64,000 nt of DNA from NCBI GenBank assembly GCA_032718865.1, contig JALUTQ010000006.1:203675-267674 (forward strand). The letters are read 5' to 3'. A program made the position numbers and the translations under genes. The stretch is from Tilletia caries (lineage: Eukaryota > Basidiomycota > Exobasidiomycetes > Tilletiales > Tilletiaceae). Position 1 is the first letter of the stretch. The number at the start of each line of letters is the position of its first letter. Below the pieces are notes generated by a model. It saw nothing but the letters and a program-made list of their open reading frames with translations. It did not search any database and was not told the origin of the DNA. Positions 8,825-50,043 of this stretch are shown here, one piece after another.

Positions 8825-9065
8825 ATATAAAGTTGAAAGGGTTCCAACTTCCATGCTTCCATCCCCTCATCTCATTCCCGAAGTTGAAAGGGATTCAACT
8901 TCTCCCCCCATCTCATTCCCGAAGTTGAAAGAGTTTCAACTTCTCCCCCCATCTCATTCCCGAAGTTGAAAGAGTTTCAGCTTCCATACTTCCATCCCCC
9001 CATCTCATTCCCGAAGTTGAAAGAGTTTCAGCTTCCATACTTCCATCCCCCCATCTCATTCCCGC
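8825..9065. repeat. Tandem repeat of about 41-54 bp with an internal inverted repeat
   Basis: Four to five copies of a unit containing CCCATCTCATTCCCGAAGTTGAAAG are arranged head to tail, with unit lengths near 41 and 54 bp. Each unit carries GAAGTTGAAAG-(N)-TTCAACTTC or a one-base variant, so each copy can form a hairpin. There is no spacer of unique sequence, and no cas-like gene is present. Confidence 0.75.
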
Positions 9066-9542
9066 ATGCCCACGCTACGTTGCACAGTCGCTCCATGCAC
9101 TCCATGTACTCCGTGTGGACTCCATGCTGCACTCAGACTAACTCGACGCACTCGAGCACCCCATGCTGTACTCACCACCAACTCGATGCACTCGATGCAT
9201 CCATCAAGCAGCTCCACGCTAGACAAGGGTTGGAAGGGCTCCGTCTCCAAGCACACTGCTATTTTGCTCGATGGGCGATGGTTCATGCTTCGCGGCCACC
9301 CAACCTCGCTTAGCACTGGCGTAGTCCTTATCCGGGGGCCGTGGAGTGTGGACGATGGTGCCCGTGGTGGACGCTCGGACATGGCGGTGGACGCTCAGGG
9401 TGGACGCTCGGCGACGATGGACAACGCTCCTTTAATGTTCCCGAAGCGCGAGACCGGTCTGCGTCAGAAACTGCCGGAGGGCGTCTGTCAGTACGATTGC
9501 AAATAGAAGATTAAAGATGTTACAGAACGGTGCCTGACCAGT
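9066..9542. other. Non-coding stretch with CTCCATGCACTC-like repeats
   Basis: The first 150 bp hold short repeated phrases such as CTCCATG and ACTCGATGCACTCGATG. The rest, to the methyltransferase stop, is unique sequence without splice-supported coding potential. ORFs over this stretch translate to repetitive Cys/Thr/Ser sequence. Confidence 0.5.
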
Positions 9543-17227: not shown

Positions 17228-17237
17228 TCCGGCTTCC

Positions 17238-17758
17238 TAGTCTGATCACACCAGACCGTCGCACGCACGTGATGACAAGGACAGGATCCCGTGGAGACGG
17301 TCTGGGGACATTCGACGCGATTTACTTAGTAGGTGGCCCATACAGAACTGAAAGTTGTCGCAGACACTGCTCCAGTGCCCAACTTCTCGACGATCCGTCA
17401 AAAAAGAGGCCCGTGCGAGCTGTCTGGTGTCCGCTCCACACGACGCAGTCAACACGAAGATTAGCTGCTCTACAGCGACGAACACAATGGCCAGCCGTGA
17501 CACAACAAAGAAGCCAATGGCAAGGAAAACACCATGGCGCTGCTCCTTGTCTGCTGAGCTCGCGGCAGCGCTGTCTTTGTGCTGATTTCGTTTGGCGAAA
17601 ATGGAAGCTGAGAGGAGGAGAAGTGGGCCTTCAGACGGTGTTGGGTCAAAAAGTTGCAGGCACCTTCCAATTGAATCGGGTCGAATGTCCCCAGACCGCG
17701 TACGCGGTATAGTGCTTTAGCTCATTTGAGAGTTACAAGGTCTGGTGTGACCAGACTA
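17238..17758. mobile_element. Non-autonomous TIR element (521 bp) of the DUF6589/helicase family
   Basis: The element begins TAGTCTGATCACACCAGACC and ends with the near-exact reverse complement (GGTCTGGTGTGACCAGACTA). It is flanked by a perfect 10-bp direct repeat, TCCGGCTTCC, at 17228-17237 and 17759-17768. A second inward block, GGTCTGGGGACATTCGA, is present at both ends. These tips match the ends of the 6.84-kb element at 40253-47094, most closely its right end over about 80 bp. ORFs inside are short and without similarity, so it is probably a deletion derivative or MITE moved by the larger element's enzyme. Confidence 0.88.
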
Positions 17759-17824
17759 TCCGGCTTCCCAAATCCGCTGCCAATCAAGAATCCATGCACG
17801 ATCGGAACGAGGACGGAAAAATCT

Positions 17825-38933: not shown

Positions 38934-39983
38934 TCATTCCGACGAGCCGGCCGTGACTCTTGTTGGGATCCTGTGAGGATGAGCCGGGTGAAAGGTGTAT
39001 CATTGCGAAGGAAAGCATGACCATCAGTGAGAGAGAGTTCACTCCTGCATGTCGCCTGTCCCTGGGTCTGCGGATTCTGTTGCTTCTGTTGATGTCTCTG
39101 TTGCTGCTGCTGCTGCGGCCGCCGCGGAGCCGGCCGTGACTCTTGTTGGGATCCTGTGAGGATGGAAGCCAAGATAGAGAGTTTAAAGGAGGGATGTCAG
39201 CGCATGTGTTGATGAACAGGAGAGACAAGCACAAACGCACCGGTCAAAGTAGGGCTTGAGCTCGTCTCCCTCGATGATCCTGAACTTCTCTCCGGACCGC
39301 GCAGCGGCGGTGTTCAAGTCGGCATCCGCGCCCGGCCCGACAAGCGAGACGGAGATGGCATCGAGGTCGAGCTCCTTGCTCTGAGGCAGGGTGTCGCGCA
39401 GGGCTGTGAGGCCGTGGAGGAGCAAGTCGTCGAGGGAAGCCTCGGGGAACTTCTCAAAGTTGCGCTCGAGGTATGTCTTAGCACTGGCAGAGCGCGCACC
39501 GAGCGCCATGGCGACGTATTCGAGGCAATTTCCGGTTGGGCTGAATTCGAAGAGGTGGGGGCCAGCGCCGTCGACGCCGATGATGAGGAAGCCGACACCG
39601 TACGGGCGCTTGCCGTACTGCATTGTGTTGAGCTGGGCGCGGTCGGCAAGGGCGGAAGCGATGCGACTAAGAGGCAGGGGTCGGGCGTAGAGCATGCGGG
39701 AGGAGAGGGCGAGCTGGCGCATGTAGTTGGACAGCACACGGGCGTCGGAGGTGAGGCCGGCGAAGGCGATGCCGACGTGGTTGTCGACGCGGAGCATCTT
39801 GTTCTGGTAGGAGGCGAGCTCGGAGGGCGCGCGCTTGAGGGCGACGAGGACGGCGTGTGTGTTGGAGCGGAGGCCGACGACGGCGCTGCCCTGCTTGATG
39901 GCCTCCTGTGCGTATGCGATCTGCCAGATCTGCCCCTGCGGACTGAACACGGTGATGTCGGAGTCGTACGTGTTGCGGAACAT
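38934..39983 (-). CDS. PRE5: 20S proteasome subunit alpha type 1 (PSMA1/Pre5)
   Basis: The first exon (39241-39983) starts MFRNTYDSDITVFSPQGQIWQIAYAQEAIKQGS, the conserved alpha-subunit N-terminus. It continues with VGLRSNTHAVLVALKR, DNHVGIAFAGLTSDARVLSNYMRQ, RPYGVGFLIIGVD and GARSASAKTYLERNFEKF. The intron begins GTGCGT at 39240. Two acceptors in a duplicated 39-bp segment both keep frame: exon 39039-39153 gives 285 residues with an Ala/Thr-rich tail, and exon 38934-38970 gives 259 residues, close to the usual alpha-1 length. The alpha ring gates entry to the proteolytic chamber in cytosol and nucleus. A 6.84-kb transposon lies 270 bp upstream of the start codon. Confidence 0.94.
38943..39165. 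repeat. Direct duplication of the terminal-exon acceptor (two copies of about 39 bp)
   Basis: GAGCCGGCCGTGACTCTTGT and the following TGGGATCCTGTGAGGATG occur at 38943-38981 and again at 39126-39165, in the same orientation. Each copy carries a minus-strand CCTCACAG acceptor and the first codons of a terminal exon. Confidence 0.9.
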
Positions 39984-39999
39984 CGCTGCTATTCAGCGT

Positions 40000-40040: not shown

Positions 40041-40339
40041 GATGCTGGCACGGTGATGGTGATCGTGAGCAGCGACCTCGGGATGAGCTGGCGTGATGCG
40101 TCTGTGCGAAGCTGAGTGGAGAGCGAGGGAGACGCAACAGCGGAACAACGCGGGATGCAGCGAGCCCGGCCTGCTCCGAGCCAAGCTTCCCACGGCCTTC
40201 CCTTTGTGCCAACTCCCACTCGGATACATAGGAGGTAAACCACAGGATGGTATAGTCTGGTCACACCAGACCACTCCAGTCAGCTGTACGTGGTCTGGGG
40301 ACACTCGACCCGATTTTATTAGTATCTGGACAACCCCAA

Positions 40340-43289
40340 ATGTACTACTATCACCATATCCCCATGCTTCACACCGGAACCAACACGCATCCTCACAAAC
40401 ATGACGCCCCAAGCAGAGCACCCTCGGTGAGTATAATGCACACACGTTCAAACAGCCATGTTGCGACGGTGCAGCGGCTTGCTACTGTGCTGCAAGCGAG
40501 GAAGGTGACAACCGCAGTTTCGTCCATTGGCGGGTCTATACTCTATAGAATTACTGACAGCCATTGTTCCTTGTTGCACAGAATTACGCGGCTCGAGAAG
40601 ACAGAAGCTGTTCATGCGGCTATGGTGGAGGTCGGTCTATCCTTCTCCGACTTTTTAGAGGAGTTCCTCACCACCAAGGCCAGTAGCTTGCAGCGCATTC
40701 GGTCAATCTGGCTTTCCTACCGCTCCGATCGTCAATACGGACCTCTACGCCTCGTTCAGCTGCTTAGCGAGGCCGTGCGCAGTGCTGGAGACGATGGAGC
40801 AGTCGCGTACGACAAAGGGGTTGCATCTATCCTCTCCGACACCATCGCTGACGAAAAGAACCAGGCCTCCCACGTACCCGGATTTCGATCTTCCGACTTT
40901 CTGAAAGATTCTTCGGCACCGGAAACGAATCAACTTCGATACCTGAGCACGTTGATGGAAGAGCATCTTCCCGTGACGTTATGCGTCGCAGATTGTCTAT
41001 GCGGAACCATCAACCAAGAAGGCCCTGTCTCTGACGGTCAAAAGGAAATCGACGGCCACATGACCGAGGACCCCCCAGTACTGTCAGAATCTCGGCAGGT
41101 GAGCAAGCTGATTAACGTATCATACAGGCACCACTCACCAGTTTCCTGACTGAACAGATGGCTTTTGATTCACAGGCAGCCGTTGTCTGCCTATCACTTG
41201 CTCTGAACCTGCGCAGCGAACGAATGAACAGACTGCAGACGGTCCTTGGTCTGTTTCTCAGGTTCAAACACACGCCCAAACCAATCCACACGATGCTCCA
41301 TCGGCTAGGACTAGCGACTTGCCCGAAAACCAGCTCTCGTCACCTGGTCGAATTCAACAAGATCTCTCTTACCAAAGCCAAGACCATGATGCAGAATCCA
41401 GAACGAGTCCACACCCTCGTTTACGACAACTTCGACATTTATGTTCAAGAGTTGTCCAATCGGGTCACATCAGCAACTCGAGTCGTCAACCTTACCTGTC
41501 GAATGGTGGTCGAGCTTCCAGAGTCGTTTTCCTCCGCAGATATATCCACGTCCATCCTATCCACCGTCAACGCTCCGCGAGATTTGAAGGAATCCGAAGT
41601 TCTGGGTGATGATGCGTATCTGACACGCGCTGCGCATCTGTTCTTGGCCCAAGAGCTGCTCCAATCGAAGCGCGCAGCGAGCGATGCTCAAAGCAAACGT
41701 GTGCGGGACACCATTCGACTCCTGCGGGACTACATTCGAGACCTCCGTGACGCTCACCGCGTAGACGAGCTCTCAGCAGCGCGATGGCAGGTAGCTCCGC
41801 TTCCATTGATAGAGGCGAACGAAGGGAGCCTTGACGGAACTCTGGCTGTGATGGAGGATACTTCAATCATTCTGGGCGTTTACGATGAGGTTGAGATTGC
41901 CGACACTACGGCTGCATCTCAAACGTCTTCCTCCTCACCAAACCAAACCAGGTGGGACATTCGGCGCTCCAGCGTTTTGCCAATGGACGGCGTCTTGCTG
42001 GTCGTTGGAGATTTAAAGACGCACAGGAATGCCGAGGCAGCATTGAAGGGACGTAGCCGGCATACTAAAGCTGAAGACAGGTATGAATTTATACATTCAA
42101 TGTCTGCTCCCTGGCATTTGCACCTTAACTGGGTGTGGGCGATATTCAAAACACACTTCTCGACATCCAAGGTTGGGTATCAAGCGAGCTTAGAGCGTCT
42201 TCGTGACGCGCTCCGTCGAGGCAAGACAGCGCTGCGAGAGGATGAACCGCTGTACAACGAAGCCTGGGCTTTGATCCAGCATACGTTTAGCGGGTGGATC
42301 CGATGCCTGTTTGTTGCACAGCTAGGCAAGCAAAGGAAAGATTTGGCGACATGGACGCCGTCCAACGCTGATGCGGTTCGCGAGCTCGTAGACGCTGTTC
42401 GTAATGCAGCGTTGACGGAACCATCGATACATGCTGCCGAGCTACTTCAAGACGAGGTCGGGGCGAACGCGCGTCGATTCCTACGCGATGCACTTCTGGC
42501 GATAGAGTGGAGCGACGCTTGTCGGACGGGAGACGTTGGGAGGATGCTGATGGCCCAAAGGTTCCTGGCTGTTGCGTTTGCCGGCGTCGGCAAGCACCAG
42601 TACTCGCAGACGTGCCTGGACGAGATCTGGGCCCATAAGGTACTACCGGTCAAAACATGGCGAACCCTGGCCGCCGCCCGCCTCATCAATCGCTTTGGGG
42701 TCCAGAACGGCTTCATCGGCGCCGATCTGTACCAAGAACACTTGAACAAAGAGCTACAGGTCAGTGGGGGGTAAACGACAGAAGAGACCTTTGAGGATGC
42801 GGTCGCTCACCTTTCCTTGTATCTCCGATTTCCATTCAGCGGGTAGATACCAAGCACGGAGCAGCAACGGCGGTTTCGAGACTGCGGGATTGCTTCTCGG
42901 CTATTGCGGAGATTTCGAGATCCCTGAACGATGCCCATCCGGAGCTCTTCGACAAGAACGGACGAAGGCTGAAGGATGACGATGGTCATGTCAAGGATGT
43001 TGAGCGGGTTTGCAATCTGGCTCAGCAAGACGGACTCTTCGACGTACATTCGGGTAGATTGTCAAACGAGACATTGGCCGCACGCGTCAGTCGTAAGCCA
43101 AAACCAAACGCGGCAGGGGTTCCGACTGGGATGGATTTGATCGCCGATCTGCTGCCAACGCAGTGCGGTACCGATGTGCTCGAGAAGGGGTTGAACTACT
43201 TGAGAGCGAAGGGACTTCAACAGTGGAAGAACGCAAGATCAGCATGGTGTCGATACGAGGCCTTGCTGCGAGAGTCACAGAGAACCTAG
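40340..43289 (+). CDS. DUF6589-family protein, candidate transposase
   Basis: Exons 40340-41098, 41158-42759 and 42840-43289 give about 936 residues. The first ATG is used, but 40436 is also possible. The C-terminal two thirds match my recollection of DUF6589, a large basidiomycete family of unknown function: VYDNFDIYVQE (about 343), LLVVGDLKTHRNAEAAL (about 537), WHLHLNWVWAIFKTHF, RFLRDALLAIEWSDACRTGDVGR, KHQYSQTCLDEIW and DLYQEHLNKEL (about 780). Conserved D, D and E at these three places could be an RNase H-like triad, which is inference. The stop at 43289 may not be the true end: an acidic frame (43163-43528, EEEAEAELALVDED) overlaps it and looks coding. It converges with the helicase inside one TIR element. 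Confidence 0.75.
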
Positions 43290-43626
43290 AAACAGATCAG
43301 GAAGAGGGTCTCGTAGTCGCGACTGAGGAGGACGCGGTTGACGTACCTAGACTTCTGGATTCCGAGCCCGACATTCTCAGCGATGACGCCAGACGAGCCC
43401 TAGAAGAGGAACAGATGCATCGGAATTGGTTGCGCAGGGAGGAAGAAGCTGAAGCTGAATTAGCGCTGGTGGACGAGGATATCACAGGGGATGGTGGTGA
43501 AGAAGGATTGATAGTGAGACAGGAGTAATCGTAACTCACCTCTGCGTTTGCGTTGATGTGTAGGTCCGCACAAGGCTGCTGAATGAACGAAGCTCATGCC
43601 TTAGATACCCATCCGTTTCGGGTTAA
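43290..43626. other. Space between convergent transposon genes with an overlapping acidic frame
   Basis: The open frame ending at 43528 is rich in Glu and Asp and differs in phase from the annotated DUF6589 exon. It could be the true C-terminus, reached by an unrecognised intron or a frameshift. No other feature is seen before the helicase stop at 43627. Confidence 0.4.
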
Positions 43627-46569
43627 TCATGCGGCAATGGGAAGGGTGAGGCTGAGCGTAGCCCACTCCAACAGGGCAGGCAGCAACGCAATGGTATGTT
43701 CCTCTGACATGCCGGAAGAATGGCCAAGCAGAGACCGTATGTAAGAGTCGTCGATGCCCTCCTTGAACACGGCACGTGCGAGTAAGCGGGGTGCTCTGTC
43801 GATCAAGCCGCCCATCGTTTCGTCTGGCATCACAGATCGCTCCGTCTTCCACTCACGCACGCCGGAGCGGCTTTTGTATACGTTCCTCCTCCAAACAAAC
43901 AAAGCCCTTCCCAAGCTGCGACAAAGCTCGACAGTATCGGAATGGGCAGGTGGAGCAGTCAGACGGCCCACGGCAGTAGAAACGCCGACATCGATTGGCA
44001 ATCGTTCGACAGTGTTGCTGTCGTGTCACTGGGAGCAGCAAGTGGGATTAGTGCCCTCCATTGTGCCTAGATCCGTGGTATAGCCAGCGTTCGGAATTCT
44101 CCTCCAGTAGAAGGACGACAGTGTGTCTTTGATTGGCCCATCACCGATAGATTCGGTGCTGACTGATGGAGGTGTCGGATTGTGCGGCTCGACAGTCTGA
44201 ATCACAGGTTTGAAATCCAGCCGAAGAAGATCCGTGATTGCGACCCGCAAACATCCCGGAGTAGAAAACCATGTCTTGAGTTGGGTGTCGAGGTTGCTCC
44301 ACTGCTGCTGCAGATGAGGAGTCAGACTGGATGCCGGTGGCGCAGACTCCGGCGACGCTTCGTGCACTCGCCGAGCTTTGTAAAAATTCCGACATCGTTC
44401 GACCCAGTCAGGACACAGCAGGAGCGCCACTGCGCGCGATCCTGGGCCGCGAGCTCCACGTCCGAAGTGCTGGACCAGTCCTCGAAAGTCCTTCGGCAGC
44501 TCCCACTGGATGATCATATCTACGTCGGGTAAATCGATACCCATTCCGAGAGCCTCTGTGGCAAAGACGACTCGTATCGATCCTGAACGTAGGCCGGCCA
44601 TCGTTTTTCGCTTCTCGTATGCGGAGTCCATAGCCGTGAACGAAGCAACCTGGTCCCTCAGCGATTCCGGGAGATGTTGTCGAAGTAGCTCCGCAGCCAT
44701 CGTAGCCTTACTCCGTGAATTGACGTATATGATCGTCTTTGGTAGCACGTTGGACCCATCCCTCGATTGGAGTATCGTAAGCAGATCGTGGAACGATGAA
44801 GCCGCATGCCGAAAAGGCTGAATGTCGTACGTGCACCCGTCTCGTTCTTTACCGACATCCAGCGCAAAGAAGGGAAACCGACCGAACTGTAGTGCTGAGC
44901 AAATTGAAGGCAGGGATGGTCCACTCAGCGTAGCTGACATGGCGAGTAGAGGAACGTTGGCGTTGAGCTTGGCCCGCAATAAACCGAGCTTGCCGAATTC
45001 CGGCCTGAAGGCCGCCCTTCCGGAGCCTGAGGCGATTCCCCAGTCGTACACGAGGTGTGCTTCATCCACGACAACGGCACGCAAGTCTCTGGCCCACATG
45101 CTCTCGCTGACGGCTTTGCCAACCCTGGTATTGTGGAACAGAACCTCGGGCGACAGAAAGACAACTTGCGCGGTGTTGTTCTCGATCTCTTGTATGGGAT
45201 TGAATGCGCGCTCCTTTGACCCTCGGCCATGTATAAGCCTGCGCCGGGGACACTGCAAATGGTTAAAGATCACATCGGTCAACACGTCTGCCCTTAGCCT
45301 TACGCGCTGATTTATCCCGTTCAATGGACTGACCTCTGCACCGAGAGTGTCGGCGTTGAGCGCGACTGCCGATATACCCAGCTCATGCAAGATGTTGGTC
45401 TGGTGAATCATAAAGGTCTTCAGAACATATGTATGCAAGACAGAATGAATCGCGTTTATGTATCCTACCTGCTCCAACTGGATCTCTTTGAGTCCAGTGA
45501 AAACCAAAAAATTGGCCTTGGGAAGACGAAGAAGAAGGGAGGCGAAGACCCAGATCATACTCTTGCCTGATCCCGTCCCCGCAGCAACGACTCCATCCAT
45601 GCCGCCGAGCAAACGATAGACCGCCTCAACCTGCCATGGCTTCGGCTCCAATGGAAAATCACGAGAGCCCATGGCAGCGCGCACCCTCTCAATCAATATG
45701 TGTCTGGGAGGTAGCACATCTCGCTCCTTCCCAGACAGGCGAGGTCGCACTCGAGTTGTATTGGGTCCTGTGTTGTGGAAGGGAAAAAGAAAGGTAACCA
45801 GAAAAAATCTGTAAATGAGTAGCCGGCAACAGTCCACATAATCACACATCGAAAGCAACTCACTTATGCGTTTGCTGGCGCGTGTCTCAATGCCATGTGA
45901 GGCAGACGCGGCGGAAACTGGTTCATTGTGACGGCTGGTGAATGCGGTTGGCGTGGGGGTGTTCAAGGAGAGGGATGCGGCCGTTTGGTCGGTCGGCGAC
46001 GGCTGCGCATTGGGCGAACCCAAAGAACCGTGCCAGAGCGCGCACAAAGCCTCTGCGCCAATCCGTTCTTCATTCGAGATGTGAAGATCACTGTATAAGT
46101 GTGATCAAAGTAGCAAGCATATGTAAATTGTCAGCATTTATGCCCTGAAGTCTGCTCAACTCGAGTCTCAGTCATAAGATGCATCCATGCTCACATTTCC
46201 ATGTCCTCCACTTGATCTGATCCCTGCCGAGCATTGATTGGCCCAACACCGGGCTCCGGCGAAGAAATCCGACGTCTCTGGGCGATGAGAATAAGAGAAA
46301 AGATCACAGTCAGATATTAGCCGCGTGCGATCCAAGCTCTGGCCTCTGACGCTATTCACGGTGCGCACCTTTGAACCACAAGGAGATGATTCATATCCGA
46401 TGTCGAAGCAGGCAGGCGCGACGATTTCGGCAGCGGGAGATGGGCGCTGAGGATTGGCTGATGCTGGATGAGGTACGTTGTCCAAGACCGCGAACGGAAC
46501 GCGACTCGGTCTTGAGCATGGTACAGCATGGCCTGGCATGTCTGAGGGAGAAGTAAAGTGGCGCATCAT
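43627..46569 (-). CDS. RecQ-like DEAH-box helicase (transposon-borne)
   Basis: Exons 46369-46569, 46195-46277, 45864-46090 and 45767 downwards join in phase. Superfamily 2 motifs are in order: AGTGSGKSMIW (Walker A, about residue 235), VVVDEAHLVYDWG (DEAH), MSATLSG, KTIIYVNSRSKATMAAELL, VVFATEALGMGIDLPDVDMIIQWELP and VQHFGRGARG (a QRxGRxGR variant). This is the RecQ/telomere-linked helicase pattern of fungi. After GTNPTCCSQ an in-frame TGA (44026-44028) occurs, yet the same frame stays open and protein-like to 43627. Either a 114-nt intron (44029-43916, GTGACA...CGCAG) removes it in frame, or it is a nonsense change at a probable zinc-binding Cys. The enzyme likely unwinds DNA during movement of the element. 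Confidence 0.78.
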
Positions 46570-47094
46570 GCACGTATCAGTTCCGTATATAGGCCAATGC
46601 AATAGCGCGGGGACGGGAAGCTCACTGGTACTCCAGGGGATGGTGAAAGAATATTGAATCGTACCCGGTAGTCGAGTGGTCGTGCTGGCGTGCAATAGGC
46701 GTGCGGGCTAGAGGATGAAGAGAGGATAGGGAATGGGGAGGCATGAGCACACGACCGCAGAACAATCAGCTTGATATACCGTACAGCAGAAGACGGATGA
46801 TGGAGGAACTCACAGCTGCGCACAAGGTCGTGATCCAGTGTCCAGTGAACAGCAAGCCGTAAGCTGTGGAAGCGCGTTTGCAGCGGGCGCGCCGCGCGAA
46901 TGAGCTGCTTGCATGACGTGCAGGGGATCCGTGCGTCTTGTGGTGTATGGGAATCGAAATGAGACGTTGGAGGGGACAAGTTGGGCCCCCCATTAGTGGG
47001 AGATCCAGCCAAAACTGCCTCGAGTGTCCCCAGACCGTCTCCACGGGATCTGTCCCTCATCACGTGCGAGCGACGGTCTGGTGTGACCAGACTA

Positions 47095-50043
47095 AGGATG
47101 GTACACAAATTCTCGAAAAACCACATGATGGTACGCTCACTATTCCTCAGACTTTTATAGTTTGGGGTTTTAGAAGCGGAATCGTTACGGCCGTAGGCTC
47201 AAAAACAACAGCTGCTTGCAAACATGCTTTTTTTTCAAGGAAGTATCTTCCAAAATTTGCACATTTTCTTTTTGGATCGGCAGCCATTCATTCGCAAATC
47301 GCAGCTCCCAAAAGATGGGGTTCAACGGACGTGTTTTGATCGCTCTGGAGCTTTTTTGTCACCACAGTCCACAGGCTTCCCAGTTTTGCCTCACTAGGCT
47401 TCATTGAATGGGACTCATAAGAGCCTAACAGGGCAAAACACCGCCTTTCCTTGGTTATACATATGATGAGAAAATGAAATGGCATTTCTCCGCGTGGCCA
47501 ACATCCCTCCTCGCAAGCATGCCTTTCCGTGCTCTTACCTGGATGCCATCCACATACACACATATTCACACAAGGTAAATCAACAAGGCCTTAGTCGTTA
47601 CTCGTTAAGGTAATGATGATTGATGTCTGATGAAGTCGCTTTGGTTGCCGTTGTGCTGGATGACCACGTGCTTAACACGTGGCACCAGTATCTTATCTCT
47701 CCCCCCTTTTTTTTTTTTTATATATATCACGATTTTTTATATATATCATGAGAATGGATTGCGGTGTAGTGACTAGTGCGGGGAGGAATACAGTGTGAGG
47801 GGAATACATCGCATCATTCGGTGCTACTTCTAAAGCTCGGGCGCGGAGTGTGAGAGTGAGGCAAGAGAGAGAGAAGTGGGTGGTAGGGGGGGTTCGGAGC
47901 AGGAGGCTAGGGCCGAGGGGTGGGTCATCGTGCTGACGTTTGGAGTTATGAAGTGGAAAGGGTTGTGGGAGGCGCAGCGTTGGGGTGAGATCAGCCGAAG
48001 GGAGTCCAAGAGGTCCTCGCCGAGAAGTTGTCGCGGAAGAGTCAAGAGATGCCCTGGGGGAGCTTGAGTAGGTATTAGGTGGGGAGCGAGGGGTCGAGGG
48101 TCACGACGGCGGAGGGTTGAGTTCTGAAATGAGTGTGAAGGTGCGCGTCCGGGCGGCCGAGGGCCGGAAGAAAAGTTTTGTGAGAAGCGTAGGCAGAGGG
48201 TGAGTTTTCGTCCAAGGCGGATGGCCAGTCCGAGCGTGGATGGGGTCGGCACGGGGTCGGTAAGGCGACTACGGTGCCGGAGCAGAGGGTGATGGTGCGG
48301 TGGGGAGGGCGGATATGGCCAAGGAGGAGCCCTCGATGCGTAGGAGGGAGGATCCCAGGATCCAGCGCGACCGGAAACGGCCGACGGCCACCTCTGATTC
48401 TTGGGGGAGTCTGGACCAGGCAGACGTGAGCGCAGACACCACCGACGCGGTGGTGAAGGACAGGACGTCCATGGTGTCACAATGGTGGAAGTTTGGAGGA
48501 GAGGCACTGGTCTTGGCGTCGCGACCCGCTATGGTGCGAGCCGTGTGGAGGGTGACGAGGACGGCGTTTCGCCACAGCTCGAGTCGGCCGCGGAGGCCAG
48601 GCAGGTGCTGCCATGCTCCGATGATGGTCCGCGGGCCGAAGGAGAGGGGTGTGGAGACCCCCATCGCCTGGAGGAGGGGGAGACAGGCAGACCAGACTCG
48701 TAGGGCCGCGGGGCACACGCAGATGCCGTGCGTCGGGGAGTCCGCCTCAGGGCAGCCGACCGGGTAGTTGCCCTTTCCTTTCTCTTATCTTCCTTTCTCT
48801 TTCTTTTTCTCTCGCATCTCTGCATAGCAACACCTGCCTCCACTTCCCTTCCCTTTTTCCCACGTCACACTTTTCTCTCGCCCTCATCCTTACCCCTCTC
48901 GAGCTCATCCTTGTACCTAGTTCTTTCTCCTGGTCATTCACTCACACTTCACTTTGCACATACTACTAGTAGACGCATCAGTCATCTCTAGCTTAGTATG
49001 GCCGTTTGCGCGCGACTGGTGCTTATTCTGACCACCAGCGGCCTTTCAAAGATCACTGACACTCCCTATTTCTCAACTCTGCTGCGACTCGGACCCTTCC
49101 ATAGCTTCTCCTGTCCATTTTTTCAACGCTGACTGTCTCCTATACTCTGCTCCTCTAGAACGGTAGCAGAGGACTTCTGTTACCGTTCTGATCTCATTCA
49201 GCCCTTTTTGCTTCTGGTGCCCGTCTCCTTTTCAGTTCCCATACCTACAGGACGGTACGGGCGCCTTCAAAACCTCTCACAGCATCTCTGTATACTTATA
49301 CACGATTCCTGCCATTTTTGGTCTCCTTCCAGGCTCTGGTTGCGTTTCGGCGACGTCAGATACCTCCAAATCCTCCGATCAACGGTGAGTACACACTTTC
49401 TTGTTTTTTCTCCGCCCACACCATCCTGACACTCTCTATACATTATTTCCTGACTCCATAGGGTGCTGTGGTGCTCGTGAAGCCTTTCCGGTTTTGCTCT
49501 GACTCTTTAAAGCTCCTAGGCATATGTCATTTCTGTTGCTATCCTGTTCGTCGTAGTACACATCATTTTTGCCTTACCATTCCCCATTCTCTGATCCAAA
49601 TCTCAGTCTGAAAGCTTCTATGAGCTCGCAATGAGCATACCTTTCGAACGTATACATTTTTGTTTTGAAGTTTGAGGTGTTGAAAAGTCAGGTGCGGTTG
49701 ATGCACCAAGAAGTGTCTAGGCATGCACGTCGTGTCATTGTCTGGAAATTGTGAACTCCCACACACGAGTACACGACCAAATGCTACCACTCAGAATTTA
49801 ACATATAACAAAAATGGTATCCGTTTGCTTTAATCATCCCAGAGACCTTTCCTGCCAATTCTCAGCGTGTTCTGGGCAGTATTGGCTCCACAGGGTAAGA
49901 AAAACAGGTCAGAAATCGAGCTGGAATCGATTTCTCACGCGTTGAAAGTCACTCCTTCGCCAATACTGCTCTGACCAGGTTCAAAGTCGGCAGGCGAGGT
50001 CTCTAGGATACTATGAGCAATTGGACACCAATTTTATGTTGTA
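47095..50043. other. No convincing gene; degenerate sequence
   Basis: About 2.9 kb after the helicase element. It includes a small palindrome, CCACGTG-CTTAA-CACGTGG (47665-47685), a poly-T/TATATA stretch (47705-47750), a GC-rich part (47820-48770) and a pyrimidine-rich part (48770-49000). Long minus-strand ORFs in the GC-rich part (47830-48507, 48269-48718) are Pro/Ser-rich and lack any recognised domain or splice structure. This may be decayed transposon DNA. Confidence 0.45.

Follow-up and report, generated by a model that had tools for sequence, protein, structure and literature searches.

A 64,000-nucleotide window of Tilletia caries DNA (the whole stretch analysed, from contig JALUTQ010000006.1) contained a 6,842-bp element (40253–47094) bounded by terminal inverted repeats (TIRs) and carrying a gene for a DUF6589 protein and a gene for a RecQ-like helicase. 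The element is probably a cut-and-paste transposon of the AcademH type, in which DUF6589 would serve as the transposase and the helicase as an accessory protein. Its tips and its gene pair recurred at many places in the 38.1-Mb genome, with target-site duplications, and the copies fell into subfamilies. The parts of the window element were the following.

40244–40252, no strand: left copy of the target-site duplication, AGGATGGTA, 9 bp
40253–40272, plus strand: left TIR, 20 bp, an imperfect palindrome (GTCTGGT-CAC-ACCAGAC)
40292–40317, plus strand: left inner (subterminal) inverted block, which includes GGTCTGGGGAC; inverted pair I1
40401–40426, plus strand: DUF6589 exon 1, predicted from a splice-site model; its residues match an annotated Tilletia controversa protein (A4X06_0g7974, hereafter P0001)
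40582–41098, plus strand: DUF6589 exon 2, predicted from a splice-site model
41176–42759, plus strand: DUF6589 exon 3, encoding the conserved acids and the greater part of the Pfam domain
42840–43289, plus strand: DUF6589 exon 4, predicted from a splice-site model
44026–46104, minus strand: RecQ-like superfamily II helicase, a 692-residue open frame recognized by Pfam and motifs; introns or further exons are likely
47011–47036, minus strand: right inner inverted block; inverted pair I1
47075–47094, minus strand: right TIR, 20 bp
47095–47103, no strand: right copy of the target-site duplication, AGGATGGTA, 9 bp

The two tips were 100% complementary across 20 bp, and the two inner blocks (26 nt) were 85% complementary. 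Direct reading of the sequence revealed a GGTCTGG core common to the inner block and the 20-bp tip. Both the exact tips and the second inner block named in a preliminary description of this DNA were thus present. That description had also given a 9-bp target duplication. AGGATGGTA was indeed found exactly at both ends; within the family defined by this tip, 10 bp was usual and the window copy exceptional.

With up to 3 mismatches allowed, the 20-bp tip matched 223 places in the genome (116 forward, 107 reverse). A reversed-pattern control gave 1 match (1 forward, 0 reverse), so the tip matches were not due to chance. The sample for tip pairs, taken with 100 of the 223 matches listed, comprised the first 30 loci (L026–L055), four further loci (L064, L065, L066 and L068) and the window. 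Both tips were present at 20 of the 30 loci, while the other ten were without a second tip within their 3 kb. Exact 10-bp duplications flanked 20 of the 22 distinct tip pairs; the window element had its 9-bp duplication, and one pair (L039) had none by the plain rule, a common word lying four bases farther out on one side. As a control, the left flank of one copy was set against the right flank of another, and duplications were found in 0 of 462 such pairings. The search by tips proposed in the preliminary description thus yielded many further copies.

Three full-length copies (L064, L065 and L066) were approximately 98% identical to the window copy, lay between other flanks and had exact 10-bp duplications of their own. 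Their mutual identity of 99.3–99.7%, together with their likeness to the window copy, argues for recent movement. The same copies bear on an alternative named beforehand, namely that the tips stem from two unrelated short elements flanking other genes. The abundance of short copies bearing these tips would fit such an origin, but the whole 6.8-kb unit was found at these three other places, each time with its own duplication, and we rejected the alternative as having next to no likelihood.

Short pairs made up 17 of the 22 and spanned 123–1281 bp. Judged by their length, these 17 are non-autonomous copies. A copy of this kind was also present in the window:

17238–17758, no strand: 521-bp non-autonomous copy (L053) that shares the tips and inner blocks of the full element, found by sequence match

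Its left tip had 1 mismatch, related inner blocks lay near both ends, and its 10-bp duplication was TCCGGCTTCC (17228–17237 and 17759–17768). Another locus (L067) was a partial copy with one tip and no pair. A small tandem array of three identical tips, in the same orientation and 56 bp apart, was observed at G000:C21:395841-395972.

The two convergent genes of the preliminary description were both confirmed by Pfam. The plus-strand gene encoded a DUF6589 domain (PF20231, E 6.4e-49), and its four exons, modelled from splice sites, would give a protein of 858 residues. Conserved acidic residues in exon 3 were D265, E397, D460, D619, E625 and D634 (858-residue numbering). The protein was 98% identical to P0001 in the best local alignment, which corresponded to 56% of the query. 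Over the last ~84 residues of P0001, the match of the window copy shifted frame relative to the preceding part, and because of this frame change the DUF6589 tail of the window copy is probably altered. The public gene model of P0001 lacked an internal stretch that reads as continuous exon in the window; the annotation probably includes a false intron spanning a conserved W-H motif. A first homologue search returned five proteins, all from Tilletia (three from T. controversa, one from T. indica and one from T. horrida), which by themselves would place the host among the bunt fungi, at or close to T. controversa. The three homologue searches returned 5, 4 and 1 proteins, Tilletia throughout, each having scored only the approximately 8,000 candidates with the most words in common, a scope that does not imply absence elsewhere. 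No relative was confirmed among viral contigs in one homologue scan, and a sequence comparison of the DUF6589 protein with the PDB gave nothing at E ≤ 10.

The minus-strand gene encoded Helicase_C (6.2e-14) and DEAD (4e-11) domains and contained the motifs GTGSGKS, DEAH, SAT and QHFGRGAR. The solved structures nearest to it by sequence were BLM and RecQ. Among NCBIfam models the RecQ family was best at 96 bits, below its curated cut-off of 220, with DpdF close behind. The helicase frames of L064–L066 departed from that of the window near residue 268, through either an intron or a frame change.

Genome searches, in which the match counts for both genes are lower bounds, gave at least 75 matches to PF20231, merged into at least 48 loci, and at least 66 matches to the window's helicase, merged into at least 50 loci. 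At 42 of the 48 DUF6589 loci found, the nearest helicase lay within 3.8 kb in convergent orientation, in support of the earlier suggestion that the helicase is a partner of DUF6589. Eight of the helicase loci found were without a DUF6589 partner.

The pair was also present in related and distant families. L068 carried the tip of the window element, altered at one position, and was flanked by a 10-bp duplication; its DNA identity with the window element was 67–69% in the three longest matches and higher in shorter ones. Among the four relatives of L068 checked, the copy on C13 had a 10-bp duplication, those on C27 and C35 agreed at 7 of the 7 visible bases of one flank, and the fourth, on C4, had no duplication. 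A distant gene-pair family was represented by L070 and L071, which shared 98.9% identity across 7.1 kb. Both genes were the same (DUF6589 and helicase), and the tip was a different one, TAGGCTCGTACCCAGCCCC, which matched 18 places in the genome with up to 2 mismatches, versus 1 for the control. The duplication of L070 was 9 bp long (GCTATAGGG), and L071 agreed with it at 8 of 9 positions. Relative to L070, L071 contained approximately 450 extra bases near its right end (8919–9369), starting where the tip is interrupted; they are probably a nested insertion.

Two observations weigh against a transposon built on this gene pair. Six of the 48 DUF6589 loci were without a convergent helicase (5 had none within 8 kb and 1 had another orientation), and one gene-pair copy on C4 (G000:C4:400304-407329, L069 3905) had both tips and no duplication. 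The genome contained a single instance of the joint between flank and tip on the helicase side of the C4 copy, and the lack of a duplication therefore cannot be put down to a second copy. It may be an old rearranged copy, or its tips may come from two copies. Both flanks could be read for 11 gene-pair copies. Ten of these showed duplications of 9 or 10 bp, among them one that contained a mismatch and two that were visible in part; the eleventh had none. Because 10 of the 11 agree, the C4 copy left our confidence unchanged.

Modelling pointed to a catalytic role for DUF6589. The top matches of a modest-confidence model of its core were the P-element, Hermes and ISCth4 transposases. Foldseek with a second (core) model gave nothing at E ≤ 0.001 against the PDB and viral models, and a model of the whole exon had a pLDDT of 46, at which a Foldseek comparison is meaningless. 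Since the modelled core fold is compatible with a DDD/E transposase, acidic residues are conserved and the gene pair is kept across families with different tips, such a transposase is the most likely identity of DUF6589. The preliminary description had proposed it as the transposase or a core transposition protein, and the recurrent tips and gene pair, the duplications and the modest fold match support this. DUF6589 could instead be a mere accessory or passenger, with the transposase elsewhere in the genome or with the helicase doing the cutting. A catalytic role deduced from a modest fold model leaves some room for this. Against it, no Pfam transposase domain was found in the seven frames of the element scanned, as had been claimed at the outset, and only DUF6589 and the helicase passed the cut-offs. 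The conserved acids, the DDD/E-type fold match and the retention of the pair in families with different tips also speak against a passenger role, which we regard as very unlikely.

With DUF6589 as the transposase, we hypothesize the following mechanism. DUF6589 would be an RNase H-fold DDD/E nuclease, with D265, D460 and one acid of the D619/E625 stretch as its probable catalytic residues. It would bind the 20-bp tips together with the GGTCTGG-containing inner blocks, excise the element and join it to target DNA with a stagger of 9–10 bp, and host repair of the staggered join would give the target-site duplication. The RecQ-like helicase, encoded on the opposite strand, would be accessory and probably acts by unwinding ends or intermediates of gap repair. 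Non-autonomous copies may be mobilised in trans by the proteins of full-length copies. We infer that movement is by cut-and-paste rather than copy-in.

The target region had a near-repeat of its own, with AACCACAGGATGGTA at 40238–40252 and AACCACATGATGGTA at 47119–47133, tens of bases past the right tip. A proteasome alpha subunit frame (39183–39992, minus strand; PF00227 and PF10584) opened approximately 260 bp from the left end of the element, which therefore lies within the likely upstream region of that gene.

No link between DUF6589 or PF20231 and transposition was found in searches of one open-licence library. The novelty most likely lies in connecting a Pfam family of unlisted function, PF20231, to transposase function. 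The family gains a transposase role that can be tested, genes annotated as DUF6589 are best regarded as probable transposon genes, and the conserved pairing with RecQ makes a helicase role in DNA transposition testable.

Several known systems resemble the window element in part. MULEs typically duplicate 9 bp, as seen at the window, but the usual length here was 10 bp; no MULE domain was matched in the seven frames scanned and this group was ruled out. P elements and hAT elements, including Hermes, differ from the window element in their 8-bp duplications and, to our knowledge, have no helicase gene, and structural-alignment identity to them was low (9–13%). Kolobok elements duplicate TTAA, whereas the window family has varied duplications of 9–10 bp, and the window helicase lies on the opposite strand, convergent with DUF6589. 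Duplication length and gene arrangement thus disfavour KolobokH, a RecQ helicase combined with a Kolobok transposase, which we consider highly improbable even though it shares the RecQ partner and, in the available part of PMC9587614, has been found only in fungi.

The helicase, the 9- or 10-bp duplications and the basidiomycete host liken the window element to AcademH, a lineage of the Academ superfamily credited to Kojima 2020 (Mob DNA 11:15) in the available parts of PMC10045372 and PMC10799480. The latter, in that part, describes AcademH as low-copy and as occurring among fungi and animals; the window element differs, with at least 48 DUF6589 loci and 223 tip matches in one genome. DUF6589 might form a transposase superfamily of its own, outside Academ, that came independently to RecQ pairing and 9–10 bp duplications. 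In favour of this, DUF6589 was compared with Academ by description only, its best fold neighbours were the P element and Hermes, and RecQ helicases have become associated with transposases on more than one occasion, KolobokH being an example (PMC9587614, available part). We nevertheless consider it unlikely, and it is likewise doubtful that such a separate superfamily, with its near-constant convergent RecQ helicase, depends on the helicase as obligate for transposition. According to the available text of PMC10045372, AcademH duplications are 9 or 10 bp and AcademX duplications 3 or 4 bp, a difference tied to helicase versus nuclease, and that of PMC10799480 already places AcademH in Basidiomycota, Ascomycota and Mucoromycota. 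Because a helicase with 9- or 10-bp duplications is the combination described for AcademH, the window element is probably not a new class but a new AcademH family, assigned by description rather than by transposase sequence.
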